A stretch of DNA of 64,000 bases from Candidatus Saccharibacteria bacterium (GCA_016432585.1 CP066696.1:62001-126000), one strand, 5' to 3'. Counted from the stretch's first letter, positions 1,359 to 18,046 are shown. Notes: generated from the sequence alone by a model not told the origin. Made by a program: numbers and translations.

Positions 1359-2597
1359 ATGAGCGGACCATTGCACATCACCTCGGAAATCGGAACATTA
1401 AAAACGGTGCTCTTGCATCGCCCGGGGGAAGAGCTGGAAAACCTCACGCCCACCTATTTAAAAGATTTGCTGTTCGACGATATTCCTTATTTAAAGCAGG
1501 CGCAGGCCGAGCACGACGCATTTGCGCAGGTGCTAAAAGACCGTGGCGTTGAAGTTCTTTATCTCGATCGCCTGACAGCCGAAGCGCTAGAGTCGCCAGA
1601 TATAAAGGCGGCCTTTATTGCGGAAATGGTCGAAGCCTCAAAGCAGGGCGGTCAGCGCGCTACCGACGCACTTAAAAATTATCTTGCAGCGCTGCCAACG
1701 CACGCGATGGTTCGCAAGGTTATGGCGGGTATCCGAAAAGACGAAATCGACCTGCCGCCCGAGCACCAGCAGCAACTTCATGCAATGGTAGAAAAGAGCA
1801 GTTATCCGTTTTATCTTGACCCTATGCCGAACTTATACTTTACGCGTGATCCCAGTGCTGCAATTGGTGGAGGTCTTACGATTAACCGCATGCACTGGCC
1901 TGCTCGTCGCCGCGAATCGCTGTTTATGCAGTATATTATTGCACACCATCCGCGATTTAAAGACGCGGACATTCCCGTATGGTATGGGCGCGACAATAAA
2001 TTTTCTATCGAGGGTGGTGACGAACTTGTTCTTAGCCGGAACGTAATGGCGATTGGCATAAGTGAGCGCACGACGCCTGAAGCGATTGAAAAGATGGCGA
2101 CAAAACTATTTAAAGAGTCTGAGTTTACGAAGATAATCGCGATAGAGATTCCAAAATCTCATGCGTTCATGCACCTCGATACGGTCTTTACTATGATCGA
2201 TCGGGATACGTTTACAATCCACCCCGAAATCCGCGACAACGGTGGCAAATTAAATATGTATATCCTCGACGAAGATGAAAATTCACCATATCCACGTATT
2301 GCAAAAGAAACTGATTTGGAGCATGTTTTACGAACGGCGTTATCCCTCGAGAGCGTCCGCCTCATCGAATGCGGTGGTGGCGATGATATTGCCGCAGCGC
2401 GAGAACAGTGGAACGACGGATCGAACACGCTTGCAATTGCACCGGGTGTTGTCGTTACGTATGATCGCAATTACGTTACCAACCAAAAATTGCGTGACAG
2501 CGGTATCGAAGTAATAGAAGTCGCAGGCAGTGAGCTGGGGCGTGGCCGCGGCGGCCCTCGCTGTATGAGCATGCCATTAATAAGAGAGGATATCTAA
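1359..2597 (+). CDS. arcA: Arginine deiminase
   Basis: Hydrolyses L-arginine to citrulline and ammonia, the first step of the ADI pathway. At 412 residues it has the usual length. Visible family motifs are [12 protein letters not shown] (about residue 165), the EGGDELVLS segment, [10 protein letters not shown] with the catalytic His, and the C-terminal [13 protein letters not shown] loop with the nucleophilic Cys at residue 402. The start is supported by AAAGGAG ten bases upstream. It is the first gene of a tight operon with arcB, a carrier and arcC. In mammal-associated Saccharibacteria the ADI system is known to supply ATP and to affect the host bacterium; the same role here is inferred. 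Confidence 0.97.
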
Positions 2598-2598
2598 T

Positions 2599-3588
2599 AT
2601 GAATACTAGCTTGAAAGGGCGGTCGCTTCTAACGCTAAACGACTATAGCGGCGAAGAGATCCGTCTGCTACTAGATACGGCGCATGAGTACAAAAAACTC
2701 AAAAAAGCAGGAACGCCACATCGTATTCACGAAGGTAAAAGTATCGCACTGTTGTTCGAAAAAACCTCAACGCGCACCCGAATTGCATTTACGGTCGCCG
2801 CAAATGACCTTGGTGTTGCACCAGAATTCTTAGGAAAAGATGACATTCAACTGGGTAAAAAAGAATCGGTCGAGGATACCGCAAAAGTCTTAGGTCGGGT
2901 GTTCGATGGCATTGAATTCCGGGGGTTCGCGCATTCTACGGTAGAATCGCTTGCTAAATATTCTGGCGTACCGGTATGGAACGGCTTGACCGACGAATAT
3001 CATCCTACGCAGGTGCTTGCCGACTTTATGACACTCGAAGAGCATATCGGTGACCTTAAAGATCTAAAGCTTGTGTTTGTTGGTGATGGTCGCAATAACA
3101 TGGCAAATAGTCTTATGCTTGGCTCCGCTAAAATGGGGCTCGATTTTAGAATTGCCGCACCACAAGAGTTGCAGCCCGACCCAGAACTTATCGCAATGGC
3201 CGAAGAATTTGCCATAAAGTCGGGCGCGAGTATTATGATTACCCACGATATTGAAAAAGCGGTGCAGGGCGCCAATGCAATTTACACCGATGTTTGGGTG
3301 TCTATGGGCGAAGAAGACAAGTTCGAAGAACGTATAAAGCAGCTGAGGCCTTATCAGGTGAACGCAGAGATGCTGCAAAAAACGGGCAATCCTAGCGCGG
3401 TATTCCTGCATTGTCTGCCCGCTTTTCATGATGTAGAAACCGACACGGCCAAAAAGATTAATCAGCAATATGGCCTTGCTGAAATGGAGGTAACCGACGA
3501 GGTATTTCGATCCTCTGCTAGTATCGTTTTTGATCAGGCAGAAAATCGCATGCACACAATCAAAGCTGTTATTGCTTTGACGCTTTAA
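2599..3588 (+). CDS. arcB: Ornithine carbamoyltransferase (catabolic)
   Basis: Converts citrulline and phosphate to ornithine and carbamoyl phosphate in the ADI pathway. It is 329 residues long. The carbamoyl-phosphate loop STRTR follows FEKT near residue 55, the HPTQ motif lies near residue 134, and the ornithine-binding HCLP motif lies near residue 272. It starts one base after the arcA stop, with an AGAGGA ribosome binding site inside the end of arcA. ArgF and ArcB are homologous; the catabolic name rests on the operon context with arcA and arcC and the lack of other arginine-biosynthesis genes nearby. Confidence 0.95.
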
Positions 3589-3610
3589 CCTAAACGAGCA
3601 GGAGGCTCAC

Positions 3611-5158
3611 GTGCAAATGAAAGCAAATCCACAAAAAAAGACACAGAAGAAATGGAGAATGCCCTCGGCGTTCAGTATCCTTTTTGGACTGATCGCGGTT
3701 GTTGCGCTTCTTACTTGGGTAGTGCCGTCGGGGCAGTACTCGCTGACTGAACCAACCGACGGTAGCGACCCTACGCCTATTGCCGGTACCTACGAACAAG
3801 TAGATAAGGTGAAGGATGTAGAAGGTGAAAGCGTTGATGTTCGCCAAGGACCTTGGGAAGTATTGCAAGCTCCTGTACTTGGTACTGCCGAAGCAATCGA
3901 CGTTGTTCTATTTGTATTAATTATTGGTGGTTTCCTGGGTGTTACCATGAAAACCGGTGCGCTCGATGCGTTCCTAGGTCGTATTGTCAAAAACATGAAA
4001 GGTCGCGAAAAGTGGCTGATTCCGGTGTTAATGACACTCTTTGCCCTAGGTGGTACGACGTATGGCATGCAAGAAGAGACGATTGCGTTTTACGCGCTTG
4101 TTGTTCCTGTCATGCTTGCTGCCGGCTACAACGGAATGGTTGCCGCGCTGGTAATTATTTTGGGTGCTGGTGTTGGTGTTTTGGGTTCGACAATCAACCC
4201 ATTCTCGACAGGCATTGCAGCGGGTTTTGCAAACATTTCAATTGGTGACGGTATGATAGAGCGGTTGATCGTTCTGGTGCTGACGCTTCTTGTAGCGATT
4301 TGGTTTGTTATGCGCTACGCAGGCAAGGTAAAGCAGGGTGAATACAAGGAAGATTCGCGACTTCAACCTCGTTCGGTAACGGCGCGCGTAAAAGATGTTC
4401 CCGCCCTTACGGGTAGGCGCAAAGCTGTTATGGCAATCTTTGGTCTTGCATTCGTTATCATGGTGATCGCCGTTATTCCATGGGAATACAAATTCGGCAT
4501 TACGTTCTTTGCCGACATGGCAACCTGGCTTAAAGAACTTCCGGTAATTGGTATATTGTTTGGTGGTATCGTATCACTGGGCGATTGGTGGTTTAACGAA
4601 CTTTCTATGCTGTTCCTTGTTGCCGCTATGATTATTGGCGTTGTGTACTACAGTAAAGTTCCTGCTAAAAAAGATGGTGGTGGATTTGTCGATACGTTTA
4701 TCGATGGTGCGCGTGACCTTTTGGGTGTTGCGCTGATTATCGGTCTTGCGCGTGGTATTTCTGTTATCATGACCAACGGCGAGATTATGGCCACGTTCAT
4801 TAATTACGGCGAGCAACTACTGCAATCCGTTCCGTCGGTATTATTGCCGGCTGTGGCGTTTGTCGTGTATTTGCCGCTTTCGTTCCTTATTCCATCGACC
4901 TCTGGCCTAGCAACGGCATCTATGCCGATTTTGGCGCCGCTTGCCGATTTCGCAAATATCGACCGTCATCTTATTGTGACCGCCTTTGCGACTTCCGAGG
5001 GTGTTATTAACATGATTGCCCCTACAGTTGCTTCGGTTGTTGGTGGTTTGGCGCTAGCTAAGGTATCATATGGAGTATATCTGCGCCGCACATGGAAGCT
5101 TATGTTAGTCTTCTCGGCGATAAGCATTGCAGTGTTAATTATTTCTGCAGTAATTTAG
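3611..5158 (+). CDS. YfcC/DcuC-family membrane carrier, probable arginine-ornithine exchanger
   Basis: A 515-residue polytopic membrane protein with about 12 hydrophobic segments. It resembles the YfcC/DcuC (C4-dicarboxylate anaerobic carrier) superfamily rather than the APC-type ArcD. Typical features are the N-terminal PSAFSILF helix, a GGTTYGMQEET re-entrant-like segment near residue 145 and a PSTSGLATASMPIL segment near residue 430. Members of this family replace ArcD in many ADI operons, so arginine/ornithine exchange is the likely job, inferred from its position between arcB and arcC. The GTG at 3611 lies five bases after GGAGG; the ATG at 3617 is an alternative start. Confidence 0.85.
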   Translation: MQMKANPQKKTQKKWRMPSAFSILFGLIAVVALLTWVVPSGQYSLTEPTDGSDPTPIAGTYEQVDKVKDVEGESVDVRQGPWEVLQAPVLGTAEAIDVVLFVLIIGGFLGVTMKTGALDAFLGRIVKNMKGREKWLIPVLMTLFALGGTTYGMQEETIAFYALVVPVMLAAGYNGMVAALVIILGAGVGVLGSTINPFSTGIAAGFANISIGDGMIERLIVLVLTLLVAIWFVMRYAGKVKQGEYKEDSRLQPRSVTARVKDVPALTGRRKAVMAIFGLAFVIMVIAVIPWEYKFGITFFADMATWLKELPVIGILFGGIVSLGDWWFNELSMLFLVAAMIIGVVYYSKVPAKKDGGGFVDTFIDGARDLLGVALIIGLARGISVIMTNGEIMATFINYGEQLLQSVPSVLLPAVAFVVYLPLSFLIPSTSGLATASMPILAPLADFANIDRHLIVTAFATSEGVINMIAPTVASVVGGLALAKVSYGVYLRRTWKLMLVFSAISIAVLIISAVI

Positions 5159-5167
5159 GAGGAATAT

Positions 5168-6109
5168 ATGTCAACGATCGTCGTCGCCCTTGGGGGCAAT
5201 GCCTTGCAACAAAAAGGTGAGGCAAGTGCTAGCTCGCAGCAAAGGGTGGCGCGATCGACGGCAGCTCAGCTTGTTCCGCTTATTCAGGACGGTCACCGCT
5301 TGGTGATCGTTCATGGCAATGGGCCACAGGTGGGCAATATTGTTTTGCACGAAGAGGCAATTAATACGCCCGAAGTGCCAACACTCCCCCTTGATAGTAA
5401 TGTTGCCATGAGCCAAGGGCTTATTGGCTACTGGCTTCAGCAGGCGCTTGCCGACGAGCTGCAAAAGACTGCAATAAAGCCCGCTGTCGTAACGCTTGTT
5501 ACGCGCATACGGGTTGATGAAAACGATCCAGCATTCACTCATCCGACCAAGCCAATCGGTCCATTTTACGAAACCGAAAACGAGGCAAAGGCCACCGCTA
5601 CTGAACGCGGTTTTGTTGTTCGTGAAGATTCCGGTCGTGGCTGGCGACGTGTTGTTCCATCTCCACTTCCAAAAGAAATTATAGAAATTGATACGGTTCG
5701 CCAACTTATCGACACGGGTACGGTTGTTATAGCAGCCGGTGGCGGTGGGGTTCCTGTCGTTAAAAAATCCGGTGTATACGAAGGTGTCGAGGCGGTTATC
5801 GACAAAGATTTTAGCGCCGCCGTAATGGCCGACGAAATCAATGCAGATTGTCTGCTTATTCTTACGACGGTTGAATCTGCAATGATCAATTACGGTACTG
5901 CCGACCAAGAGGCGCTTGGTGCCATTACCGCCGAAGAAATGCGCCAATATGTTACAGACGGCCAGTTTGCATCGGGGAGTATGTTGCCAAAGGTCATGGC
6001 TGCACTGCAATTTGTTGAAGAAAACGACACGCGCCGTGCAGTGATTGCATCGCTCGATAAGGTAAGCGCTGCTGTAGGCGGTACATCGGGAACAGAAATC
6101 CGTCGTTAG
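5168..6109 (+). CDS. arcC: Carbamate kinase
   Basis: Transfers phosphate from carbamoyl phosphate to ADP, giving ATP, CO2 and ammonia: the energy-yielding last step of the ADI pathway. The 313-residue protein has the amino-acid-kinase fold signatures VALGGNALQ at the N-terminus, HGNGPQVGN near residue 42, and AAGGGGVPV near residue 193. A strong AGGAGG lies five bases before ATG, right after the carrier's stop. With arcA and arcB it makes the pathway complete in this window. Confidence 0.96.
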   Translation: MSTIVVALGGNALQQKGEASASSQQRVARSTAAQLVPLIQDGHRLVIVHGNGPQVGNIVLHEEAINTPEVPTLPLDSNVAMSQGLIGYWLQQALADELQKTAIKPAVVTLVTRIRVDENDPAFTHPTKPIGPFYETENEAKATATERGFVVREDSGRGWRRVVPSPLPKEIIEIDTVRQLIDTGTVVIAAGGGGVPVVKKSGVYEGVEAVIDKDFSAAVMADEINADCLLILTTVESAMINYGTADQEALGAITAEEMRQYVTDGQFASGSMLPKVMAALQFVEENDTRRAVIASLDKVSAAVGGTSGTEIRR

Positions 6110-6112
6110 TTA

Positions 6113-7093
6113 ATGAACACACTCCGAGCTTCAAAATTAGCATTTGAAAGAGTGGCGGTTGTCTATAATCCATCGGGCAGGTCGATGGCAGAGGCGGCAG
6201 TCGATGAACTTCGAGAACACGGTTTTGCTGCCGATATTTTTGGCACCGTTGCTGGCGGTATCGAACCGAATGTCGATATGCTCGCTAGCAATCTAGAGCC
6301 CGGCGACGTTGTAGGGACGGTGTGTGGTGATGGTACGTTCGGCACGATTGTCTCGGCCATGCGCCAGCCAGAGGTGATTGAAGCTACTGGCGGGCCATTG
6401 CCAATTTGTCCACTAGAGGGCGGCAACGCGAATGATGTTCGCCAATCTATGCACGGTCGGGTTCGTCGGGCGCCAAGCTGGGTGTTGCAAAACGGCATCG
6501 TCGTGCCAGCCCACACGCTAGAGCGGACAGTGGTGCATGAAGACGAAGTAGCGGTCGACGAGGCCGTGTCATATTTTGGGTTTGGCAAAACCGGCGAGGC
6601 ATCACGCCGGTTAGCGTCGCCCGAATACAGGCTTGGGACATTTGTGGTGAAAGATTTAAAACTTGGGTTTGCAAGCCTTTTTGGTGATGGTGCGTTTGAC
6701 CTCGTCGATAACGATGGCAGCGAAAAGCGCCTGGGTGATTTAACCGTGGTAAAGGGGCGGGTGATGGCCAAGATTGGCAAATTTGGCGTGCGGCACTTTG
6801 AGAAAGAAATGATTGTCGCAAAGACAAAGCCGAACCCTGTCTCAAGCACGCTTGGCTGGGCGGCCATAATTGGCGGGCTTCCTTATGGTAAACGCACAGC
6901 TCAGTATGGATTTACTGTTCTGAGCCCAGTTTTATCGCACAGAGACGGCGAACCGCCAGATTTATTGCCAGCTGGAAGTACAGTCGATGTCCGGGTTGCA
7001 GATGATCCGTATCTGCTTGTGACGACACGTCGGTCGGGCCGGAGGGTTCTTGACCTGACCCTAGAGGCGAATACCAGTACAGATGTGATCTGA
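6113..7093 (+). CDS. Diacylglycerol/lipid kinase-like protein
   Basis: A 326-residue protein of the DAGK_cat/NAD-kinase-like fold. It opens with VAVVYNPSGRSMAEAA, has CGDGTFGTIVSA in place of the usual GGDGT nucleotide loop (about residues 71-82) and LEGGNANDVRQ in place of PLGTGNDFA (about residue 103). The first Gly of GGDGT is Cys here, so activity should be tested rather than assumed. It starts three bases after the arcC stop without its own clear ribosome binding site, suggesting translational coupling to arcC. A lipid kinase joined to an ADI operon is unusual; a link to lipid recycling or envelope supply is only a guess. Confidence 0.75.
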   Translation: MNTLRASKLAFERVAVVYNPSGRSMAEAAVDELREHGFAADIFGTVAGGIEPNVDMLASNLEPGDVVGTVCGDGTFGTIVSAMRQPEVIEATGGPLPICPLEGGNANDVRQSMHGRVRRAPSWVLQNGIVVPAHTLERTVVHEDEVAVDEAVSYFGFGKTGEASRRLASPEYRLGTFVVKDLKLGFASLFGDGAFDLVDNDGSEKRLGDLTVVKGRVMAKIGKFGVRHFEKEMIVAKTKPNPVSSTLGWAAIIGGLPYGKRTAQYGFTVLSPVLSHRDGEPPDLLPAGSTVDVRVADDPYLLVTTRRSGRRVLDLTLEANTSTDVI

Positions 7094-7128
7094 TCCCATA
7101 TATCACCGTTTCAAAACCGTAAGCAGCA

Positions 7129-7137
7129 TGATATACT
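7129..7137 (+). promoter_or_regulatory. Extended -10 promoter of surface cassette
   Basis: TGATATACT matches the extended -10 consensus. The predicted start near 7144 gives a short leader containing AGGGG seven bases before ATG 7181. It would serve the four genes up to 10230. Confidence 0.5.
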
Positions 7138-7180
7138 TCAAAGTAACAAGTATCCATATATAAAGGATTAACAGGGGTAT

Positions 7181-7792
7181 ATGATAAAACGAATCAACAA
7201 ACAACACTCCGGCGTTATATTTGCTGCTGTATTTATGGTGCTCAGTGTTTTTGTCATGCCCGCCGTTGCTGGTGCCGCAACAACTTCAACGACAATCAAC
7301 TCGGCAATTAGTGGTGTGATAAGCGTCTTTACGAGCAACGGCACCGTAACGGTCAACGTAACACCTACGGGCTCGGGTGCGCAAACGATCGCAAGCGACA
7401 CGCTAACGGTAAGTACTAACAACTCGGCTGGCTATACGCTTCAGATTGCCGACACCGACGCAACAACAACGCTTGTTTCGGGGGGTAATACAATCCCGGC
7501 ATCATCTGGTACGCAGGCTTCGCCGGTTGTTCAAGCGGCTAACACCTGGGGATACCGCGTTGATGGGTTAGCAGGCTTTGGAGCAGGTCCAACATCTGGC
7601 CAAAACAGCGCGGCGATCGGCGCACTGACGTTTGCGGGTATGCCGGCCAACTCGTCGCCTGCAACGCTTAAAACCACGGCAACCACAGCAAGCAACGACA
7701 CGACAACGGTATGGTACGCTGTAGCGGCCAATACGTCACAGCCAACAGGGTCATATACCGATGGCGTTACCTATACTGCCACGACAAACTAA
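7181..7792 (+). CDS. Secreted WxL-like surface protein A
   Basis: A 203-residue exported protein. Residues 1-33 form a signal peptide with a basic start (KRINK), a long hydrophobic core and an AxA-type site (AVAGA). The mature part is Thr/Ser/Ala-rich beta sequence. It has a NNSAGYTLQIAD segment, a NTWGYRVDGLAGFGAGPTS core near residue 125 and a C-terminal GSYTDGVTYTATTN. The last element resembles the end of Gram-positive WxL domains (G-Y-T-x-T-L-T-W-T-L) with altered residues. A paralogue lies at 9607-10230 with the same core. The two flank a DUF916-like gene, which is the partner found next to WxL proteins in Firmicutes. WxL homology is inferred from context and motif; cell-wall or glycan binding is likely but unproven. 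Confidence 0.7.
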   Translation: MIKRINKQHSGVIFAAVFMVLSVFVMPAVAGAATTSTTINSAISGVISVFTSNGTVTVNVTPTGSGAQTIASDTLTVSTNNSAGYTLQIADTDATTTLVSGGNTIPASSGTQASPVVQAANTWGYRVDGLAGFGAGPTSGQNSAAIGALTFAGMPANSSPATLKTTATTASNDTTTVWYAVAANTSQPTGSYTDGVTYTATTN

Positions 7793-7816
7793 CGGGTGCG
7801 GGAAAGACAATTTACT

Positions 7817-8713
7817 ATGAAAAAAATAATCCAGGGTGGCTTAGCTGCGGGAATATTTGCATTTATTATCGCACTTGCTGCGGCCGTACAGCCTGTTAAT
7901 GCGGCATCTGGTGGATTGACTATTTCGCCAACATCGGCAGATGTAACGGTCGCCCCTGGTGGGTCGTACAAAGGCGAAATGCTTGTGGTGAATCAGGGTG
8001 AGCTTGATATTTCGTACAAAGTATACACAACCCCGTATAGTGTTGATGGCGAAGATTACAAGCCATACTTTAGTCCTATCCCTGGCGCGACCGATATTAC
8101 GAAATGGTTTACGCTTGGCAAAAAAGACGGCGACATAAAAGTAGGCAACCAAAATACCGTTCCGTTTACGATAGCCGTTCCAAAAGGAACAGGCGCGGGC
8201 AGTTACTATGCGACCATTTTTGTTGAAACCGAGGATAAAGGAAGTACGGGCGTGGTAACGCGAAAGCGTATTGGTATGATCGTTTATCTTCGCGTGTCGG
8301 GTAATGTTATCGAAAAGGGAAGCGTTGCAGGCTGGAATGTTCCTTGGCTGCAAGAGGCGCCATTTACTGCAAGCGTAAAGGTGGCAAACGAAGGTTCGGT
8401 TCATTATCCTGCAAGAGTAAAGGTTGTCGTGAGTGATTTGTTCGGCTCGCAGAAGTTCTCGTATGAGCGCAATCCTCAAATTATTCCGCAAAAAGTACGT
8501 GATATCCCCGTGGTATGGGAGAACGGCGCGTCATTCGGCTTATTTAAGGTAGACGGCGAAGTTACCTATCCGGGCAAGACCGAGCAACTTCCAACTAAGT
8601 TTGTTTTTATCGCAAATCTGCCAATGCGTCTTGTGACGCTCGGTAGTATCGTAGCTTTTATAGGCCTTGTTGTCTATTTGGGTCGTAAGCGTGCAGTGGC
8701 TCACAAAAAATAA
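7817..8713 (+). CDS. DUF916-like (WxL-partner) membrane-anchored protein
   Basis: A 298-residue protein starting at the ATG that begins a clear signal peptide (MKKIIQGG, hydrophobic core, VNAAS). An upstream in-frame GTG at 7796 would spoil the signal and is not preferred. The N-terminal domain (about 35-150) has the pattern seen in the peptidoglycan-binding DUF916 domain: a LTISPTSADVTVAPGG strand, a stretch with polar YKVYTTPYS, then a TIAVPKGTGAGSYYATI strand. A second Ig-like beta domain follows, then one membrane helix (about 270-290) and a basic tail GRKRAVAHKK. In the Gram-positive WxL system such proteins hold WxL proteins at the surface; the same role is inferred here. Confidence 0.72.
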   Translation: MKKIIQGGLAAGIFAFIIALAAAVQPVNAASGGLTISPTSADVTVAPGGSYKGEMLVVNQGELDISYKVYTTPYSVDGEDYKPYFSPIPGATDITKWFTLGKKDGDIKVGNQNTVPFTIAVPKGTGAGSYYATIFVETEDKGSTGVVTRKRIGMIVYLRVSGNVIEKGSVAGWNVPWLQEAPFTASVKVANEGSVHYPARVKVVVSDLFGSQKFSYERNPQIIPQKVRDIPVVWENGASFGLFKVDGEVTYPGKTEQLPTKFVFIANLPMRLVTLGSIVAFIGLVVYLGRKRAVAHKK

Positions 8714-9602
8714 GCTCATTGTTCTCGCGGCAGCTAGTTTTTGCCTGGTTATTTTTGCCCCTCAGAACACTCTTGCCGCGCAGACTATTCAGTCGAGTAT
8801 ATGCGAACAGTTTATCGCTCCAACGATAGGGCTTCCAGCGGATGGGGCAGAGATCAAGCAGAGCTCGGTTGTTGTTTCGGGTACGGGCGAGCCAGGTATG
8901 ACCGTTACTATTCTTGGCGACGGGCAGGCGATAGGTGCGACAACTATTGTTCCCGACGGCTCGTATGCACTAGAAGTACCCCTTTTAAGTGGGTATACCC
9001 AGCTTGTCGCGCGTGAAGTAAATGACTGTGATACCATACAGGACTCGAATATGGTGACAGTTTACCACCCAGCTCCGCCCGCTCCTGTTCCGCCTGGTAA
9101 CGGCAACCCGTCTGATCCTAATGCTCCTGGTTCACCCACTCCATCGCCGTTACCCTCGCTTGATTATCCTATTGTTGAAAATTACTACCGCGAGAAACGG
9201 AGCGCCGCAGATGGTCACGTAAAGCCGATTATTGTGCGGCCAACAGATGAAGCGGTTGTTTCTGCAGATGTTATTTGGGTGAGCGGAAAGGCCGAGCCCG
9301 GAAGTATAGTCACGATATTCGTTAATGGTCAGCGAATGGCCTATGTCGTTGCGTCGCTCGAAGGTACGTACCGCGCATTTGTGGGATTGCAACTAGGAGA
9401 CAATATTATCCAGGTTCGCTCCGAGTTGGGCGGACAGTCGGCAAATTCCGACAGTATTACGGTGACGTATGTTAAAAAAGAGATAGTTCTTGGTTTTCTT
9501 GAAAAGCATATACTGATTGACGCAATAACACTTTTTGCGCTCGCCATAATAAGCCTTAGTATCGTATGGGCTATTAATGCCCGCCACGGTAAGCTAAAGT
9601 AA
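8691..9602 (+). CDS. Membrane-anchored Ig-like surface protein
   Basis: About 303 residues from the GTG at 8691, which overlaps the end of the preceding gene; TTG codons further upstream are less likely. An N-terminal hydrophobic signal (LIVLAAASFCLVIF) precedes two bacterial Ig-like repeats with the same outline: IGLPADGAEIKQSSVVVSG near residue 40 and IVRPTDEAVVSADVIWVSG near residue 180. Between them is a Pro/Gly/Asn-rich linker of about 35 residues. A C-terminal membrane helix (DAITLFALAIISLSIVW) and short basic tail anchor it. It probably serves as a stalked surface protein co-expressed with the WxL-like pair. No enzymatic motif is visible. Confidence 0.72.
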   Translation: MQWLTKNKLIVLAAASFCLVIFAPQNTLAAQTIQSSICEQFIAPTIGLPADGAEIKQSSVVVSGTGEPGMTVTILGDGQAIGATTIVPDGSYALEVPLLSGYTQLVAREVNDCDTIQDSNMVTVYHPAPPAPVPPGNGNPSDPNAPGSPTPSPLPSLDYPIVENYYREKRSAADGHVKPIIVRPTDEAVVSADVIWVSGKAEPGSIVTIFVNGQRMAYVVASLEGTYRAFVGLQLGDNIIQVRSELGGQSANSDSITVTYVKKEIVLGFLEKHILIDAITLFALAIISLSIVWAINARHGKLK

Positions 9603-9606
9603 TAGT

Positions 9607-10230
9607 ATGAGAAGATTGGGGCTGATCGCGCGAGGGGCTGTAGCGATTTTTATTGTGCTACTGCTTGTCAGTAGCGGCGTTCGTGCAGACACGACCGACA
9701 CTGCAGTGTACGGCGCGGGTGACTACGGTGGATGTAGCTACGGGTCGTGCACCCTCACTCTTACAAGCGATGGCGCTACCAGTGTTGATGTTGTCCCAAC
9801 TCCGGCTGGTAAATGTACTGTTCAAAAAGATGCCGTTTCAGTTCTTACTAACAGCACGACAGGCTATACGCTCACAGCAAAGACAAGCACCGGAAATAAT
9901 GATATGACTGGCGCTAGTGCGAGCATAACTGCGTCGAGCGCCACGCCTGCGTCGCCGACAATTCTGGCTATGAACACATGGGGGTATCGTGTTGATAATC
10001 TTGCCGGCTTTGGCGCCGGCCCAACTTCGGCACAAAACAGTGGAAGCGTTCCTAGTGTTGCCTTTGCTGCGATGCCAGCTAGCGACGAATCACCGACTGC
10101 AATTGCATCGTCGTCAGGCGCGGCGAATCCTGCCGAAATAACAGATGTTTGGTATGGGGTGTGCGCAGATTCGTCATTACCTTCGGATACGTACACGACC
10201 ACGGTCGTTTATACAGCTGTAACGAACTAG
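9607..10230 (+). CDS. Secreted WxL-like surface protein B
   Basis: A 207-residue exported paralogue of the protein at 7181-7792. The signal peptide (MRRLGLIARG, hydrophobic core, GVRA) is followed by a beta-rich mature chain with NSTTGYTLTAK, a NTWGYRVDNLAGFGAGPTS core and C-terminal SDTYTTTVVYTAVTN. Unlike its paralogue the mature chain has four Cys (GGCSYGSC near residues 38-42, GKC near 60, GVC near 182). These are likely disulfide bonded outside the cell, consistent with DsbA-like and VKOR genes in this window. It begins four bases after the preceding stop and ends the cassette. Confidence 0.7.
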   Translation: MRRLGLIARGAVAIFIVLLLVSSGVRADTTDTAVYGAGDYGGCSYGSCTLTLTSDGATSVDVVPTPAGKCTVQKDAVSVLTNSTTGYTLTAKTSTGNNDMTGASASITASSATPASPTILAMNTWGYRVDNLAGFGAGPTSAQNSGSVPSVAFAAMPASDESPTAIASSSGAANPAEITDVWYGVCADSSLPSDTYTTTVVYTAVTN

Positions 10231-10247
10231 TACCGGGGTTGGTTTTA

Positions 10248-10277
10248 TTGACAACGAGGGGTGTGAACGTCTATAGT
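10248..10277 (+). promoter_or_regulatory. Promoter of tail-fibre-like/Kelch operon
   Basis: TTGACA (10248-10253), an 18-base spacer and TATAGT (10272-10277) form a near-consensus housekeeping promoter just upstream of the gene at 10302. This is the best -35/-10 pair in the first 20 kb and suggests strong expression of the large surface-protein operon. Confidence 0.6.
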
Positions 10278-10301
10278 TAAGCGTAAGCGGACGGGGGTAA
10301 A

Positions 10302-10556
10302 ATGAGTGATCTTAAGCGTATGGCGACAGAGATTTCTGAAAAAGAAATGTCGCGTGGGCAATTTTTAGGCGCGGTGGGCGGCAGCTTTTTAGGTATGATT
10401 GGTGTTTTTGGTGTTATTCAGGCACTAAATACGCCCGAATCAGACCTAGCGAATAAAAATGAAAACGTTTTTGGCGAACGCGAGTATGGCCACCCAGATG
10501 GCGGTATTGGAAAAGCAAACGCGCCAAAAAAGTTTGATGAGGATGTGTTCGGTTAA
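10302..10556 (+). CDS. Small single-pass membrane protein heading tail-fibre-like operon
   Basis: An 84-residue protein with a cytoplasmic-looking N-terminus, then MSRGQFLGAVGGSFLGMIGVF, a hydrophobic helix (about 18-42), then a charged Gly/Asn-rich tail of about 40 residues. The SRGQFLG context looks like a Tat signal (S-R-R-x-F-L) with the second Arg replaced by Gly, so Tat export is possible but not shown. A GGGGG ribosome binding site precedes ATG. Its stop overlaps the next start by one base (TAATG), so it is translated together with the tail-fibre-like protein. Function unknown; an anchor or secretion helper for the following proteins is a reasonable guess. Confidence 0.65.
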   Translation: MSDLKRMATEISEKEMSRGQFLGAVGGSFLGMIGVFGVIQALNTPESDLANKNENVFGEREYGHPDGGIGKANAPKKFDEDVFG

Positions 10557-11209
10557 TGGCACGATTACCTATTGTTGGTGGGGACGCGGGAAACTGGGGG
10601 ACAATTCTTAATGAATACCTCCAGGTTTCGCATGCCTCCGACGGCACGATAAGTGCTGGGGCAGTAGGTGCAACACAAACAAATCTTACTTCAGTGGCGG
10701 GCGGCATGCTACTACGGGGCACATTTGCCTCGCGCCCAGCTGCTGCGGCAGGAAATGCCAATCTTTACTATCTTGCCACCGACAACAACGGCGGAACACT
10801 TTATCAGTCAACGGGCAGTGCGTGGGTGCAAGTTGGCGCGGGGGCGGCCCACGGTGCAACACATAGTACCGGTGGTCCCGATGCGCTTAGCGGTAACTTA
10901 GACGCAATTGCACGCCTGGCTATTGCCAAGGCAGGTTCGGCTATAGGATCACGCCGACGTCTTAACTTTATAGACGGAACAAACGTTTCAATTACTCCTG
11001 TAGACGATTCTGGTAACGAAGAGGTCGACGTCACTATCGGACTTACGGGAAGTGTGGCGGTTGCAAATGGTGGTACAGCTGCGACAACTGCGGCTGGGGC
11101 GCGTACGAACCTGGCGGTGCCCGAGGCAGCTGGATTTGCAAAGATATCTGTTGGGACTGTCGCGCCCTCTACACCAGCCGTTGGCGACCTATGGGTGGAC
11201 ATTAACTAA
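10556..11209 (+). CDS. Phage tail-fibre-like protein
   Basis: A 217-residue Gly/Ala/Thr-rich protein without signal peptide. It starts with LPIVGGDAGNWGTILNEYL and carries a VANGGTAATTAAGARTNL segment near residue 170. The latter is the G-G-T-x-A-T-x-A-x-x-A-R-x-N-L motif typical of bacteriophage tail fibres and collar proteins. It ends in a SVGTVAPSTPAVGDLWVDIN tail, again typical of fibre tips. No other phage structural or packaging genes are nearby, so this is a domesticated or convergent fibre-like surface protein rather than part of a prophage. Overlap with the previous stop indicates coupled translation. Confidence 0.7.
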   Translation: MARLPIVGGDAGNWGTILNEYLQVSHASDGTISAGAVGATQTNLTSVAGGMLLRGTFASRPAAAAGNANLYYLATDNNGGTLYQSTGSAWVQVGAGAAHGATHSTGGPDALSGNLDAIARLAIAKAGSAIGSRRRLNFIDGTNVSITPVDDSGNEEVDVTIGLTGSVAVANGGTAATTAAGARTNLAVPEAAGFAKISVGTVAPSTPAVGDLWVDIN

Positions 11210-11220
11210 GGAGAATAATC

Positions 11221-13128
11221 ATGGCGACGAGACTTAAGACTGTAAAATACGCCTTTCCCGCACTGGCATCACTCGTAAACAACACCCTTACGACCCTTAC
11301 TCAAATAACGGTATATCTTCCCGAATCGAGCAAGGTATTCCGCAGCGTTGTTGCGCATGTAACGATGGACGATATCGTGACGGCAACGGGAGGTTCATTA
11401 ACAACCAAGACGCTAGGCTTGCGTGTCGGGGCGGCGGGCTATACGTCGATTGCAAATGCTAACACGCTAACAACCTCGGCTGAGAATGCCTCATTTTGGC
11501 TGTCGGCTGATTTTACGAGCCATTTTACGACCAACTGGTCAGGGTCGAGTATGACCTGCGACTTTCAGCTTCAAATCAATCAATCTTCAGGAACGACACT
11601 AGGGATGGTGAATGTGTGTGTGACGCTGGACATCACGTATGAGTACGACGATACAAGCGCGACTCATGTAAAGACGGTTATGATCCCACTGAACGCGCCG
11701 GTCGGTGCTATTGCCACGACAGCCACAACGTATGATACGATTCCGGCACTCGACACATATTTACCCGAGGCAAGCAAGGCGTATCGAAACATCCACCTGG
11801 TTATGCAGGGTAACGAAGCCCGCAATGCCGCAACGACGTCGCATACTATGACAATACGTGTCGGAGCGGCAAGCGTAACAACGGGTAACTACGAGGGTAC
11901 GCTGGCGTCGGATCGGTTTTTCCGCTACGTCTACAACCTCACTTCCACATACCCGTCTACTGCTGCGACGCAAACATTTCAGCCCACAGCAACGGTAGCG
12001 AGGGTTAATCACTTTCAGGCATATTTAGTAGTGACGTATGAGTTCAACCGAGCTACCACCACGAGCGCTATGAATTCGCTAATGTTGCCGATGGATATCG
12101 CTTCGCCTATGGGTGGTACGACTGCCAGCGATTATCAAAGGGGTACGCGCGAACTTTGGATAGAAGAGCCGGGAACGATTACAACTAACCGCGTGGCCTA
12201 TTATCATTTTTGGCAGCAAATGACTGCTATTAGTACGCTTAACTTTCGGGTAGGTACGGGTTCGTTTGTTGCATATACCGACACTGCATCGGTACTCTGT
12301 GGTGCAAACGGTGCCATGGTTCGTAACGACGCAGCCTTTACGCTTGCTAGAGGTAGAAACACGCTAAACTTCGACGTGTATCGCTCCGACACGACCGACT
12401 TCGGATGGAATGCCTGTGGCTACTGGATAGTTAATTACACGTCATCGGTCGCCACTGCTGGTATTGGCGCGCATAACCATACGGTAGATTGGGGCTTGCT
12501 GCAAAATGGCACGGGTGCTGCCGCGAGCAACTATACCGTTGCAGCAACAGCACCTGTTATACCCGAAACGGATTATTTTATAACAGCGCTTGGTACACAG
12601 TTAATTGTGGCGTCAAGCGGTGTGGTTGCGCCGTCGGGATATGTCGTCATGGCAGAGCGCCTGGTGGCAGAAGGTGGGATGGAGTGGGAGCCTGTTTACA
12701 GCGACAGCTCGCAGACAGACCCCGAGATTGGTACGTTCCTTATGTACTCACAAATGAGAACCCTCTTTAAGAGGTTTCCAGGCGATGCCGACCCTGATCG
12801 CATAGACGTAGAGACGGCCCGGCGATGGCGAGTGCATATCAACGGCTCAACGACGGTCAATGCTTGGGTGAGCCTCGGGGTTATCATGACATACCACACT
12901 ATTACCTATACGGTGGCCGATAACATTACCGGTTTTGCTGGAACAGTGAGTATCGATCTGCATCGCTCCGATGAAAACACCAAGCAACCGGGTGAGCTAG
13001 TGAAGTCGACAACCCGCAGTGGTGACGGTCCTTTCTCGTTCAGCTGGTACGACAACACAGAAGAACTCTATATTTCCGCAAGAAATAGTAGCAACGCAGG
13101 CCGGTCATCCGATAGTCTGGCGAGTTAG
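11221..13128 (+). CDS. Large beta-rich repeat protein, unknown
   Basis: A 635-residue protein with a good AAGGAG ribosome binding site, no signal peptide and no transmembrane helix. It contains three diverged repeats of about 145 residues. Each begins with a YLPE(A/S)SK-F/Y-R-type strand, carries a (L/I)RVG(A/T) strand in the middle and closes with a V-T-Y-E-(Y/F) strand (near residues 140, 280 and 425). A C-terminal section of about 200 residues follows. Thr, Ser, Ala and aromatic residues dominate, as in phage tail and baseplate proteins or secreted adhesins. I do not recognise the family. Position between a fibre-like gene and a Kelch gene suggests a structural role in the same surface object. 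Confidence 0.65.
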   Translation: MATRLKTVKYAFPALASLVNNTLTTLTQITVYLPESSKVFRSVVAHVTMDDIVTATGGSLTTKTLGLRVGAAGYTSIANANTLTTSAENASFWLSADFTSHFTTNWSGSSMTCDFQLQINQSSGTTLGMVNVCVTLDITYEYDDTSATHVKTVMIPLNAPVGAIATTATTYDTIPALDTYLPEASKAYRNIHLVMQGNEARNAATTSHTMTIRVGAASVTTGNYEGTLASDRFFRYVYNLTSTYPSTAATQTFQPTATVARVNHFQAYLVVTYEFNRATTTSAMNSLMLPMDIASPMGGTTASDYQRGTRELWIEEPGTITTNRVAYYHFWQQMTAISTLNFRVGTGSFVAYTDTASVLCGANGAMVRNDAAFTLARGRNTLNFDVYRSDTTDFGWNACGYWIVNYTSSVATAGIGAHNHTVDWGLLQNGTGAAASNYTVAATAPVIPETDYFITALGTQLIVASSGVVAPSGYVVMAERLVAEGGMEWEPVYSDSSQTDPEIGTFLMYSQMRTLFKRFPGDADPDRIDVETARRWRVHINGSTTVNAWVSLGVIMTYHTITYTVADNITGFAGTVSIDLHRSDENTKQPGELVKSTTRSGDGPFSFSWYDNTEELYISARNSSNAGRSSDSLAS

Positions 13129-13136
13129 GCGCGTCA

Positions 13137-16100
13137 ATGGCATTTAACGTTACTTCCAACTCTACAACGGGATTTAGCGTTTTATTAGATGTGCCATTAA
13201 TCGAAACGTTTACCGACGACTTTAACGACAACTCGCTCGATACAACAAAGTGGGATCTTTGGGATGTGGGCCACGCTGTGGAAACTGGCGGCGAACTGCA
13301 GATCGCTTCAGTTACGGCGGCATCGTACCGGGGAATGCAATCCGTAAGAACGGGTAATTTAACCGATTCGGCAGTTCATGTTGAGGTGCCGCATGTTCTT
13401 ACTGGCCTTACCGATGCAAGCACGTGTTTGCAGGTGGCAGTAGATGATCAACATACGATAACGCTCTACGAAAGTGGCGGCTTTTTTGTTGCCGAATACC
13501 AAATAGACGGGGTTTGGACAACGCCAGCAACAATGGCCTATGGCGCCACAACTCACAGATGGTGGCGTATTCGCGAAGCCGGCGGAACGCTTTACTATGA
13601 ATATTCGGCCGACGGTGCAACCTGGTCGGCACTAACATCGGTGCCGACACCATTTGCCGTAACGGCAATGTATACTATGTTATTTATCGGAACGTCGTCA
13701 ACTAACGTTTCAACCGACACGGCAATCTTTGACAACGTCAATACGATGCCGACCATGGCGTCGTCGCGCGCACAGTATCGTAATGATCAATATACACCAA
13801 TTGCTGTTGGGGGTAATACGAGTGGCGACGGTTCAACAAACGATGTATGGCTTGATGCCGATGTCTATAGCGAAACGCCAACTGTTGCGACAACACTTCA
13901 TGCCGAGGTGAAGGCGGTTGGTGTTGGATTTACAAATACGGCCACGGTTTCATCGACTGCGCGAATACTAAAACAGGCTGAACTAATAACCGCCCGACGT
14001 GGTGGAAGTTTGGTCTACGATGCTAAAAATAAGCGTTACATATTATTTGGTGGCTACAACGGAACAACAAGATTTAATGAAGTTTGGCAGCTAACAGCAG
14101 ACAACGGGTATCATAGGTGGAGTAAATTAGCGCCAAGCGGAACGCCGCCGACAGCTAAAAACTTGGCAGCTTCTACCTATGCGCGGGGAACAACGTCCGG
14201 TGCGGTCGACAAAGCCTATATGGTGATTTTTGGTGGTTCGTCGCCCTCGGATCTCAACGAGATGCACTGCCTTGACTTATCGACGCCAGGCTCCGAAGCG
14301 TGGTCAACGATTACACAAACCAATACACCGCTTGTTCGGTCGTATTTAACGCACCATATGGTTGCAAAATCGACAGCCTCGAATACGAACGATATCTATC
14401 TTTTTGGCGGCTGGGGCGCGGCGCGATACAACGACCTGCTGCGATGCACGTTCAATGTGAATACCCCAACTGCAGTTACCTGGACAACAGTAAAAGCAAA
14501 CGGAGCGGTGGGTAACCCGGGTATTCGATCTGGTACAGGAATGATCTACGATTCGGCGAATGATCGCCTTATTATTACATGTGGCTATAACGGAACGACG
14601 TACCTTAGTGACGTATGGCAATTTGCTATCGGAACAAGTACGTTTTCACAGATTACTCCGGGTGGCTCGGCGCCGGCTGGTCGCGAATTGCCGAGTATCG
14701 TTTACGATTCGGTTAATCAGCGTGCGATTGTTATGGCGGGTTGGCAGGGGAATATCAACAATAGCCGTAATGATATTTACGAGCTATCACTAGAATCGGG
14801 TAGCGAAACCTGGACGAGCCTTCATGTAAATGATCTAAGCAATCAAAGTTTCCTCGCTTACTCAAGCGGCGCGGCAACGATTAATACAGATCGCAATGTT
14901 ATGGTTGTTGCGACAATGAACGGCTACGATAGCACGGTTAAATACGTGTACGCTCTTGATCTTGCAGTAACCACAACTTCGGCGACCGTTCACAGCCTAA
15001 ATGTTATAGATCATTTCCGAGCCCGGGACGCGGCGGCGACAACTTACGATTCGGCGCTTGGCGAGGTTGTACAAATTGGTGGCTATGGAACAATGGACGA
15101 CGACACGACAATTACTCGTGGTGATCACATATCCGAGATTTGGGCGTATAATCCAACGACAAATACGCTGCGTTATGCAGCGGGCGGTCCGTTCGTGATG
15201 CCGCAAAGTGAGGGTGGAATTGTTATTTATGATAGTGCCAATGACCGCATTATTCATTTCGGTGGACTGAACGGCGGCAGTAACCGAACAAGCGATGTCT
15301 GGGAGCTAAGGGCAGACGCTTTTGGTATGTATCACGCCACAAAGTTAACCGTCTCGGGAACGCCGCCAAATCCTCGATGGTTAATGGCGGGCTGTTACGA
15401 TTCGGTAAACCAACGTCTTGTTATTTGGGGAGGGCAGGGTGTTGGCGCGACAGTTCTTAGTGACACTTGGGCGCTTAATCTTACCGAAGGGGCTGAGACG
15501 TGGACGCAACTAACGCCAACAGGAACAGGCCCTACGGCGGCCTGGCAGCCTGCTTACAGTTACGACACTGCAAATAAGCGGCTCTATATTCACGGAGGAA
15601 CGACCAATGCTGCGGGTACTACGTTCACCTCGCAGCTATTCTACCTCGACCTTACGACGACGAATGGCGCCTGGACAAATACAGGAGTAACTGGCGGTCT
15701 TGCTGTTCGTGGAGCCTCAATGGTGTACGACAGCACAAATCAGCGCCTCGTTTGTTTTGCTGGATACGATGGATCGGTAGTGAACAATACAATTCGCTAC
15801 ACGAGCACGGCATCGTTTACGTCTTGGACAACACAGGCGACAGCCAATACGCCAAGCGCGCGCCGTAGTGCTGGCTGGATACTTGTAGGAGGAAAGTTTA
15901 TTGTTCTTGCGGGTCGTCCGGTATCGGGAACGTGGTTTAGTGACACGCAGTCGCTCGATATTACAGCGCTACCCGCCGCATGGAGTTGGGTGAATAAATC
16001 ACCTTCTATCTACCAGGTTATGTCGGTTGCAGCCACGGCACTTTCGGTTGGCACAAGCTACCATTGGCAGTCATGGACAACCAGCGGAACCGACTCTAGC

Positions 16101-16961
16101 GTGCCGCAATCATTTGGCGGAAACGCCGAAAGCGCTGCCGACTTTATCGTCAATGGTACTACCGGAGGGTATATCAAAGTTTGGGGCGGGGTTGCGTTCG
16201 CGTCAAAGCCGATTAAGGTATGGGACGGCGCGTCTTGGGTAATGAAACCGTTAAAACGCTGGAATGGTTCAGAGTGGGTGCTTACTCCTGGTGCAGCGTC
16301 GGGGATTGCGCTGCGTGATATCAGTTCGAATACTGGCGTAACGGTTAATACCCTTGGCGTTACTATGCCGAGCTCAATTCAGGTTGGCGATTTGTTAGTG
16401 CTTGTTGTATCTCAAACAACAAACGCAGCGACAGTGTTTAATGCAATAAGCGGCTGGACAAAACAGGGCGAGCAGCGCGCTGGCGGGGCAGGATATACGC
16501 TTGCAGTCTACACGCGCGTCGCGCAGTCGGGCGATGCAGGTGGAACTGTTACCTCTACCTCGGTGAATGCAGCCCATTATACTGGCCATTTGCGCGTCTA
16601 TAGCGGCGTTGATCAAACGACGCCTCTCGATACGTCGGCAGTTTTCTCCGAACTCGACGTCGCTAGTTTTTCGGCATCAGCTCCAGCCGTTACGGTTGCG
16701 ACGACAAATGCAATGCTTGTCGCAATATACGGTATACCAACAGTGGCAGGCACATCACTTAGCGATGCAGACTGGACGGCTCCGGCTGGCGGCTTTAGCA
16801 GCGAGGTTGTTACATGTCCCGCAACGGGTTCGAGTAACCGACCCTGTACCGCGGTGTATGATAGGATTACTTCCGGCACTGGCTCGCAGGGTCCGTTCGA
16901 AGCGACGACTACACAAGATCGTCGATGGTCTCTCGTGACCTTGGCATTACGACCCGCGTAA
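13137..16961 (+). CDS. Giant Kelch-repeat protein with LamG-like and tail-tip-like domains
   Basis: A 1274-residue protein. Residues about 20-205 form a concanavalin/LamG-like domain (TDDFNDNSLDTTKWDLWD start; the TLYYEYSADGATWS strand is typical). Residues about 280-985 hold at least ten Kelch-type blades of the form Y-D-S-x-N-x-R-L-(I/V)-x-x-G-G, e.g. YDAKNKRYILFGGYNG and YDSANDRIIHFGG, enough for more than one beta propeller. Residues about 1000-1050 contain three KVWxGxxWVxKPLK repeats, a pattern of phage tail appendages. The last 225 residues are a beta-rich tip-like domain. No signal peptide or sortase motif is seen. Glycan or protein binding is likely from the domains; a host-attachment role is inference. 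Confidence 0.78.
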   Translation: MAFNVTSNSTTGFSVLLDVPLIETFTDDFNDNSLDTTKWDLWDVGHAVETGGELQIASVTAASYRGMQSVRTGNLTDSAVHVEVPHVLTGLTDASTCLQVAVDDQHTITLYESGGFFVAEYQIDGVWTTPATMAYGATTHRWWRIREAGGTLYYEYSADGATWSALTSVPTPFAVTAMYTMLFIGTSSTNVSTDTAIFDNVNTMPTMASSRAQYRNDQYTPIAVGGNTSGDGSTNDVWLDADVYSETPTVATTLHAEVKAVGVGFTNTATVSSTARILKQAELITARRGGSLVYDAKNKRYILFGGYNGTTRFNEVWQLTADNGYHRWSKLAPSGTPPTAKNLAASTYARGTTSGAVDKAYMVIFGGSSPSDLNEMHCLDLSTPGSEAWSTITQTNTPLVRSYLTHHMVAKSTASNTNDIYLFGGWGAARYNDLLRCTFNVNTPTAVTWTTVKANGAVGNPGIRSGTGMIYDSANDRLIITCGYNGTTYLSDVWQFAIGTSTFSQITPGGSAPAGRELPSIVYDSVNQRAIVMAGWQGNINNSRNDIYELSLESGSETWTSLHVNDLSNQSFLAYSSGAATINTDRNVMVVATMNGYDSTVKYVYALDLAVTTTSATVHSLNVIDHFRARDAAATTYDSALGEVVQIGGYGTMDDDTTITRGDHISEIWAYNPTTNTLRYAAGGPFVMPQSEGGIVIYDSANDRIIHFGGLNGGSNRTSDVWELRADAFGMYHATKLTVSGTPPNPRWLMAGCYDSVNQRLVIWGGQGVGATVLSDTWALNLTEGAETWTQLTPTGTGPTAAWQPAYSYDTANKRLYIHGGTTNAAGTTFTSQLFYLDLTTTNGAWTNTGVTGGLAVRGASMVYDSTNQRLVCFAGYDGSVVNNTIRYTSTASFTSWTTQATANTPSARRSAGWILVGGKFIVLAGRPVSGTWFSDTQSLDITALPAAWSWVNKSPSIYQVMSVAATALSVGTSYHWQSWTTSGTDSSVPQSFGGNAESAADFIVNGTTGGYIKVWGGVAFASKPIKVWDGASWVMKPLKRWNGSEWVLTPGAASGIALRDISSNTGVTVNTLGVTMPSSIQVGDLLVLVVSQTTNAATVFNAISGWTKQGEQRAGGAGYTLAVYTRVAQSGDAGGTVTSTSVNAAHYTGHLRVYSGVDQTTPLDTSAVFSELDVASFSASAPAVTVATTNAMLVAIYGIPTVAGTSLSDADWTAPAGGFSSEVVTCPATGSSNRPCTAVYDRITSGTGSQGPFEATTTQDRRWSLVTLALRPA

Positions 16962-16972
16962 ACCTGATTCTG

Positions 16973-18046
16973 TTATTTTTGTCTTTGTACGGCGGCGTGA
17001 ATGAGTGCTAAAAATTTGTCGTGTGAGCTTTTTGATAGAGCCAGTTTATCAAGGGATTCTTCGGCAATCTTTGCACGCGATTCGATTTCGAGCATGGTTT
17101 TTTCGCGAGCACCTGATCTTTCGATATCGCGCTTTAGTGCCTCGGTATCTTCTGGCGAGGCATTGGTGTTATGAAACGCGGCAGTAAAAGTAGCGCGAGA
17201 TTCTAATGGCGTCAACGCAAGATATTGTTCTATCAAATACGTAAGTTTGCCTTCGCGAATATCGCTGTCGGTAGATTTTCCGGTTATTTTTTCATCGCCA
17301 AACATTCCAAGAAGATCATCGGAAAGCTGAAACGCAACGCCAAGCGATTCGGCAAATAATCGCAAATGGTCAAGTTGCGCCGATGACGCTCCGGCGAGTG
17401 CCGCGCCCGAAAGTAGTGGCGATATAAAAGAATAGCTTGCGGTTTTATAGCGGGCAATCATAATTGCACTGCTACTTTCGGGCGGCATAAATGTCGACTC
17501 GATGTCAACCAGTTCGCCGCCCGCTACTTCAAAAATACCGCGCGAGAAAAACCGCATAGCTGTTGTTTTTTGCCGAGGATTAAGCGAACTTTCTATTACC
17601 AACTGGTGCGCTGCGGCAAGGAGTAAATCACCGGCAAGAATAGCTGCACTGTACGAATAGTGTACCCTATCTTTTTGATCAAGGTGGTAGGGTTGGTAAA
17701 AGGCTTCATAAAGTCCGTTTATGTTTTTGCGGCCACGTCTCGACGTGTCACGGTCGATAATATCATCATGAATAAGCAGGCTCGTGTGCAGTAGTTCGTG
17801 CGCCGCGGCAACTGGCGCAAGTGTTTGTGGCTGCCGCCCGCCTAAAGCCTCGTAGGCAAGAAGCACCATGCGTGGCCGTAGCCGCTTACCACCAGAAGAT
17901 ACGATGTCGGCTATACTTTGCCATAATCGTTCATAGCGAGAATCAATCTCTGTAGCGTCTTGAATCCCTTTTGTTAAAACTGTCCGAAGTGATGCCTCGA
18001 CGAGCATCATTGTTGGGTCACCCGTAAGGTTTGAAGGAGCGGTCAT
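16973..18046 (-). CDS. Polyprenyl diphosphate synthase
   Basis: A trans-prenyltransferase of 357 residues that builds isoprenoid diphosphates, needed for lipid carriers or membrane isoprenoids. The first aspartate-rich motif is LIHDDIIDRD with the basic RRG just after, the GGKRLRP substrate motif is present near the N-terminus, and the second aspartate motif is QLSDDLLGMFGD. The start was set at the ATG at 18046 because upstream in-frame codons run into the divergent flippase gene at 18099. No clear ribosome binding site is visible. It lies between the surface operon and the glycan operon, which would use undecaprenyl-type carriers. Chain length cannot be told. Confidence 0.85.
   Translation of the reverse strand: MTAPSNLTGDPTMMLVEASLRTVLTKGIQDATEIDSRYERLWQSIADIVSSGGKRLRPRMVLLAYEALGGRQPQTLAPVAAAHELLHTSLLIHDDIIDRDTSRRGRKNINGLYEAFYQPYHLDQKDRVHYSYSAAILAGDLLLAAAHQLVIESSLNPRQKTTAMRFFSRGIFEVAGGELVDIESTFMPPESSSAIMIARYKTASYSFISPLLSGAALAGASSAQLDHLRLFAESLGVAFQLSDDLLGMFGDEKITGKSTDSDIREGKLTYLIEQYLALTPLESRATFTAAFHNTNASPEDTEALKRDIERSGAREKTMLEIESRAKIAEESLDKLALSKSSHDKFLALIHAAVQRQK

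Follow-up and report, generated by a model that had tools for sequence, protein, structure and literature searches.

How do ultrasmall bacteria with an epibiotic lifestyle recognise a host and hold on to it? Four consecutive genes, here called P1 to P4, bear on this open question; they lie in a 64,000-nucleotide stretch of a Candidatus Saccharibacteria genome (GCA_016432585.1, CP066696.1:62001-126000; hereafter the window). The source genome comprises one contig (952,504 bases) at a completeness of about 97%. An earlier note on this DNA had described the genes as a phage-derived adhesin complex that binds the host cell and is exported by an unknown route. On balance, P1 to P4 appear to form one unit of a surface-display system coupled to twin-arginine translocation (Tat), a pathway that exports folded proteins; this reading is held with slightly more than even confidence. 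It draws direct support from the gene content of the operon, the phage relatives of P3 and P4, the lack of hydrophobic signal peptides, and co-inheritance and adjacency with tatAC. In place of the unknown route, these gene associations make Tat the very probable export route of P2 to P4, with P1 as its presumed partner.

Co-inheritance with the Tat translocase

Two samples were searched, namely 121 relatives of the source genome and a separate phylum-wide set of 240 genomes. TatC was counted when above the Pfam cut-off, relatives of P1 were collected with profile A1 (members mostly 56-90 amino acids, aa), and the N-terminal domain of P2, RLPxxGxDxGxWGxxLN, for which the name RLP is coined here, was represented by profile A2. 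The source genome encodes TatC at G000:C1:136029-136649 (E 2e-49) and also a TatA-like protein (L051 5752-5985). Among the 121 relatives, TatC is present in 40 genomes, P1 in 43 and RLP in 43. TatC and P1 occur together in 40 genomes, TatC alone in none, P1 alone in three and neither in 78 (Fisher p=7e-29, a test that ignores kinship); for TatC and RLP the corresponding counts are 39, 1, 4 and 77 (p=6e-26, with the same limit). The genomes with TatC span 15 families, and within the window's family some members have TatC, P1 and RLP while others have none of them. Across the 240 phylum-wide genomes, RLP is found in 12 and P1 (E < 1e-7) in exactly the same 12, with weaker P1 matches in four more. 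Of these, five come from outside the order, and TatC is present in every one. Since TatC is present in 40 of the 121 relatives, it is common in the order; a complete Tat system was noted in 2018 in one Saccharibacterium, where it was then thought unique and had four predicted Tat-motif genes (PMC6031116).

Individual exceptions were inspected. The P1 match in G127 is weak, lies in a 628-residue frame and is probably false, and the G069 contig breaks off next to P1, where the adjoining residues resemble, by eye, the end of TatC. G064 has neither TatC nor P1, and its single RLP gene is frameshifted (L158 3242-4315, minus strand); its congener G008 has TatC and P1 along with seven RLP genes.

The genes are also neighbours. 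Of 52 P1 genes, 34 lie at most 2 kb from tatC and 18 at most 1 kb from an RLP gene, and additional copies of P1 are linked to particular RLP genes. In a distant genome, G351, the order tatA-tatC-P1-RLP-P1-RLP runs in a row on one strand. A P1 gene and its RLP neighbour share one base in the window (TAATG at 10556, where the P1 stop and the P2 start meet), in G036 and in L028, and are a few bases apart elsewhere; this spacing suggests that their products are made together.

P1 and its family

P1 bears the Tat-like SRGQFLG motif that the earlier note had ascribed to it and a single hydrophobic segment, and its orthologue in G036 has the full SRRQFLK motif. The family motif is [SDT]-R-[KR]-x-F-L followed by one hydrophobic stretch. 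In 46 distinct P1 proteins, the R and F of R-x-x-F are invariant, the residue after the motif arginine is K in 33, R in seven and G in three, the hydrophobic segment follows the motif in all 46, and a C-terminal [FY]G...[YF]G is present in 45. This order of motif, hydrophobic stretch and tail resembles that of a signal-anchor which is not cleaved and has its C-terminus outside. The NCBIfam model NF038009 (TatB_1) matches all 23 P1 proteins tested, yet the TatC-linked P1 paralogue reaches 79 bits, below the curated cut-off of 100, and the window P1 gives no match at E 0.01; the model is silent on cargo. P1 is a member of a widespread Tat-linked family half-recognised by NCBIfam and not an oddity of one operon.

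Small proteins that are secreted or lie in the membrane, mostly encoded next to tatA, have a YGxGxYG-like motif near the start of the mature part, which recalls the [FY]G..[YF]G at the C-terminus of P1. Several of these proteins finish with an LPxTG-like NTG or DTG and a membrane segment. A motif common to the outside parts of P1 and these proteins may reflect an interaction between them.

P2 and the RLP domain

P2 is the fibre-like protein of the earlier note and contains GGTAATTAAGARTNL, as stated there; its profile matches to tail-fibre PHROGs are weak (best E 1e-4). The RLP domain is always N-terminal, in proteins without a signal peptide: 48 of 71 RLP proteins begin exactly with the domain, most others within a few residues, and by hydropathy none of the 71 has a hydrophobic stretch at its N-terminus. 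Within the window, P2 and P3, and by eye P4, likewise start without a hydrophobic segment, in keeping with the signal peptides reported missing from the three large proteins. RLP genes are multi-copy, with eight in the source genome, 20 in G046 and 13 in G112. Large repertoires such as the latter two are a possible measure of host range.

In 30 of 42 RLP genes with complete context, the next open reading frame (ORF) follows immediately on the same strand and encodes at least 100 aa, so P2 with P3 and P4 behind it matches a common scheme in which an adaptor precedes a tip. Partners in other RLP units, in the source genome and elsewhere, carry beta-helix, pectate-lyase-like and GDPD domains, which are also found in phage depolymerases. 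No RLP domain was found in plasmid records. Streptomyces phages BRock and GiJojo hold RLP-domain genes (L168 5791-6738 and L169 5956-7398). The idea that RLP serves as a phage baseplate adaptor is weakened by their setting, a tRNA array with no annotated tail gene within 6 kb on either side.

Phage ancestry of P3 and P4

The phage derivation proposed earlier is supported for P3 and, within P4, for the phage-like parts, while the adhesin and host-binding part of that proposal stays conjectural. By its relatives, P3, in which internal repeats are visible by eye, is phage-derived. At 57-70% identity, it has relatives encoded by virus contigs, with terminase, portal or tail genes as neighbours. 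For example, nearly full-length homologues are encoded on two IMG/VR contigs, L004 (69% in the best segment), next to terminase, portal and major head protein genes, and L005 (62% in the best segment), next to tail proteins. Further relatives occur on a Rhizorhabdus metagenome-assembled contig with terminase, portal and tail-fibre genes and, at 32% identity over nearly the full length, in the 735-kb huge phage LR756501. Whereas the L004 and L005 homologues sit among virion genes, the window P3 is part of a cellular operon that includes P1 and P2. Its closest relative is on a Candidatus Moraniibacteriota chromosome contig (84% identity over the 396 residues compared), and none was found in 150 saccharibacterial relatives. 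The P3 profile gave no match of note among solved structures.

P4 is a mosaic. Residues 15-284 match phrog_14065 (E 1e-21), and its start is similar to Streptomyces phage minor tail proteins. The Kelch and KVWxGxxWV content noted earlier is borne out by PF24681 (E 3e-59, four stretches), Kelch_3 (six stretches) and KVWxGxxWV repeats resembling Rhodobacter phage proteins. Relatives of P4 come after RLP genes in G036, G115 and G048 and after the end of an RLP-type gene in G138. The single match to P4 in a search of viral contigs was on L006, a phage contig that also encodes terminase and portal.

The locus in other genomes

G036, from another genus of the same family, has the same locus, comprising four upstream secreted genes, P1', P2' (74% identical to P2), a 269-aa protein and P4' (57% identical to P4). 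The 269-aa protein, which occupies the place of P3, differs from it and is related to a protein of L006 (30%, E 6e-18, a single comparison); just after that relative, L006 carries a gene like the start of P4. Together, the G036 locus and the L006 relatives indicate that P1-P2 is kept, with phage-like modules being swapped in the interval from P2 to P4. The Moraniibacteriota contig L013 carries tatC (6890-7765), a membrane protein with RRRAFLK (8810-9325), a 222-aa phage-like protein and then the P3 relative, 2.2 kb downstream of tatC. Because profile A1 does not match the RRRAFLK protein, it is either an analogue or a distant relative of P1.

The statement that no prophage surrounds the genes is upheld by inspection of window ORFs of at least 150 aa (rather than by a whole-window profile scan), none of which is recognisable as a capsid, terminase, portal or integrase gene. 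By the same kind of inspection, no head, packaging, sheath, tube or integrase gene was seen in the window or G036 ORF lists and no holin or lysin at the P1-P4 locus, and the G036 and Moraniibacteriota copies sit among ordinary cellular genes rather than in a prophage. All four genes are under purifying selection: the proportions of nonsynonymous (pN) and synonymous (pS) differences are 0.12 and 0.79 for P3 against the Moraniibacteriota copy, and 0.17-0.29 and 0.67-0.81 for P1, P2 and P4 against the G036 copies.

Export, display and competing explanations

In the proposed mechanism, P1 would act as a small signal-anchor whose R-x-x-F-L motif engages TatC. Folded P2 would bind P1 via the RLP domain, P3 and P4 would bind or stack on P2, and the P2-P3-P4 complex would pass through TatAC by hitch-hiking on P1, whose membrane segment would then keep the complex tethered outside. 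The displayed parts, drawn from phage receptor-binding and depolymerase proteins, would bind surface polymers of other bacteria. Docking, transport, tethering and host binding are thus conditional steps, and a role of P2 to P4 in host attachment is suggested by their domain content together with the saccharibacterial lifestyle. More broadly, Patescibacteria may own a dedicated secretion-and-display machine of TatAC and a P1 carrier-anchor, its main cargo being exchangeable phage-derived fibres docked via RLP, so that Tat has turned into a host-recognition organelle; this wider proposal is tentative and falls a little short of an even chance.

Several points weigh against Tat-coupled display. 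The second motif position of P1 is mostly K, and G in the window, instead of the classical R-R; generic Tat-signal models are weak on the family (TIGR01409 matches 6 of 23 P1 proteins, best E 0.019, and PF10518 3 of 23); and the NCBIfam label, TatB_1, denotes a translocase-associated protein and not a carrier. RLP genes occur without a TatC match in four genomes, of which one has a pseudogene, one has an assembly broken next to P1, and G044 and G118 are unexplained; moreover, related genomes are not independent, which inflates co-occurrence. The single-protein structure models are poor for P2 (pLDDT 37, single sequence) and P3 (pLDDT 47, four sequences), P3 being all-beta at low confidence and its comparison by Foldseek with viral structures uninformative (TM-scores about 0.1-0.2).

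The features of the motif and the TatB_1 label make a translocase-subunit role of P1 the main rival. P1 would then be TatB-like or regulatory, RLP would be an unconventional Tat targeting element, and P1 would neither carry nor anchor. NF038009, which matches every P1 protein tested even though the TatC-linked member stays under its cut-off, and the position of most P1 copies next to tatC agree with such a role. In TatB a membrane helix forms the N-terminus and the tail lies in the cytoplasm, whereas P1 has the signal-anchor order; extra P1 copies are paired with individual RLP genes, and a separate TatA is present at tat clusters (TatA-like ORF, L051 5752-5985). This explanation is judged unlikely. 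Somewhat less unlikely, and overlapping with Tat-coupled display in that the proteins would still be displayed, is a function in polymer degradation for food, as phage decoys or in self-aggregation instead of attachment. The GDPD, pectate-lyase-like and beta-helix partners of RLP units and the phage origin of P3 suit it, while Pfam shows no enzyme domain in the window P3 and P4.

The fibre proteins might also be adhesins or depolymerases that leave by lysis, vesicles or another secretion route, their Tat link stemming from shared ancestry or lifestyle. Streptococcus mitis PblA and PblB, prophage proteins set free by the lysis genes of that prophage, offer a precedent, and kinship among genomes favours the same view. 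Set against these are contiguous operons in distant lineages, the 12-for-12 agreement phylum-wide, the joint loss in G064 and the lack of a holin or lysin in the inspected locus, which leave this route improbable. A decaying, functionless phage remnant would fit the phage origin of P3 and its absence from the 150 relatives; long intact frames under purifying selection, a syntenic operon in another genus and the lack of other phage genes at the locus make it very improbable.

Relation to known systems

Tat-coupled display would extend known principles. Three-part hitch-hiking through Tat, in which signal-less subunits ride on a signal-bearing partner, is established for Escherichia coli PaoABC, and HybO-HybC crosses in the same manner (PMC4273604). 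Those are cofactor enzymes, whereas here the presumed carrier is a short membrane protein and the cargo is fibre-like. Host attachment in Saccharibacteria may have a parallel in the mosaic adhesive trimer (MAT) proteins of Bdellovibrio bacteriovorus, which have a signal peptide and then a conserved domain of about 130 aa (PMC10769870). By description rather than sequence comparison, P2 to P4 are set apart from MAT fibres in having no signal peptide, and proteins of RLP units in being co-inherited with TatAC and P1. The title of Mitchell et al. 2007 (cited in PMC7606975) presents PblA and PblB as phage-encoded surface adhesins, a likeness to the role proposed for the present proteins; the prophage and lysis release there differ from the Tat link without a prophage here. 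A literature search, with most subscription papers outside its reach, found no report of the combination of Tat, P1 and RLP fibres in Saccharibacteria or Patescibacteria.

If the proposal is correct, TatC, P1 and RLP genes would mark species that use borrowed phage fibres, and RLP partners would list candidate host receptors. The saccharibacterial Tat pathway, to which PMC6031116 assigned no role beyond the four predicted motifs, would gain a main cargo, and Tat would export large fibre-like assemblies rather than cofactor enzymes.

Genomic context

ORFs for P1 to P4 are in place as an operon behind a near-consensus promoter, as first described (Table 1). The promoter is the top scorer among ten promoter-like sites in 9500-17400, a count that equals and does not exceed chance.

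Table 1. Features of the P1-P4 locus and related motif proteins (window positions unless a contig is named)
Feature	Position	Strand	Remarks
Upstream cassette, four secreted or membrane proteins	7181..10230	+	order kept upstream of P1 in G036; association
Sigma-70-like promoter TTGACA-18-TATAGT, ahead of P1	10248..10277	+	11/12 consensus matches
P1, 84-aa membrane protein, SRGQFLG, one hydrophobic segment	10302..10556	+	C-terminus VFGEREYG...FDEDVFG
P2, 217-aa fibre-like putative adaptor, no signal peptide	10556..11209	+	ends PAVGDLWVDIN
RLP N-terminal domain of P2 (MARLPIVGGDAGNWGTILNEYLQVSHASDGT...)	10556..10684	+	profile A2
P3, 635 aa	11221..13128	+	predicted all-beta, low confidence
P4, 1274-aa tip-like protein	13137..16961	+	
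P4 N-terminal phage-type domain	13179..13988	+	phrog_14065; Streptomyces phage minor tail proteins
P4 Kelch-repeat region	14004..15926	+	approximate limits
P4 KVWxGxxWV repeats	16164..16286	+	also in Rhodobacter phages
P4 C-terminal domain	16314..16958	+	in 268-aa protein directly downstream of RLP gene in G115
YGxGxYG-like motif protein	L051 5436-6095	-	
YGxGxYG-like motif protein	L025 2139-2612		
YGxGxYG-like motif protein	L049 925-1185		
YGxGxYG-like motif protein	L163 8104-8541		
YGxGxYG-like motif protein	9607-10230		

Shortly upstream of the operon, window positions 1359-6109 hold an arginine deiminase cluster of arcA, arcB, an arcD-like carrier and carbamate kinase, named by eye.

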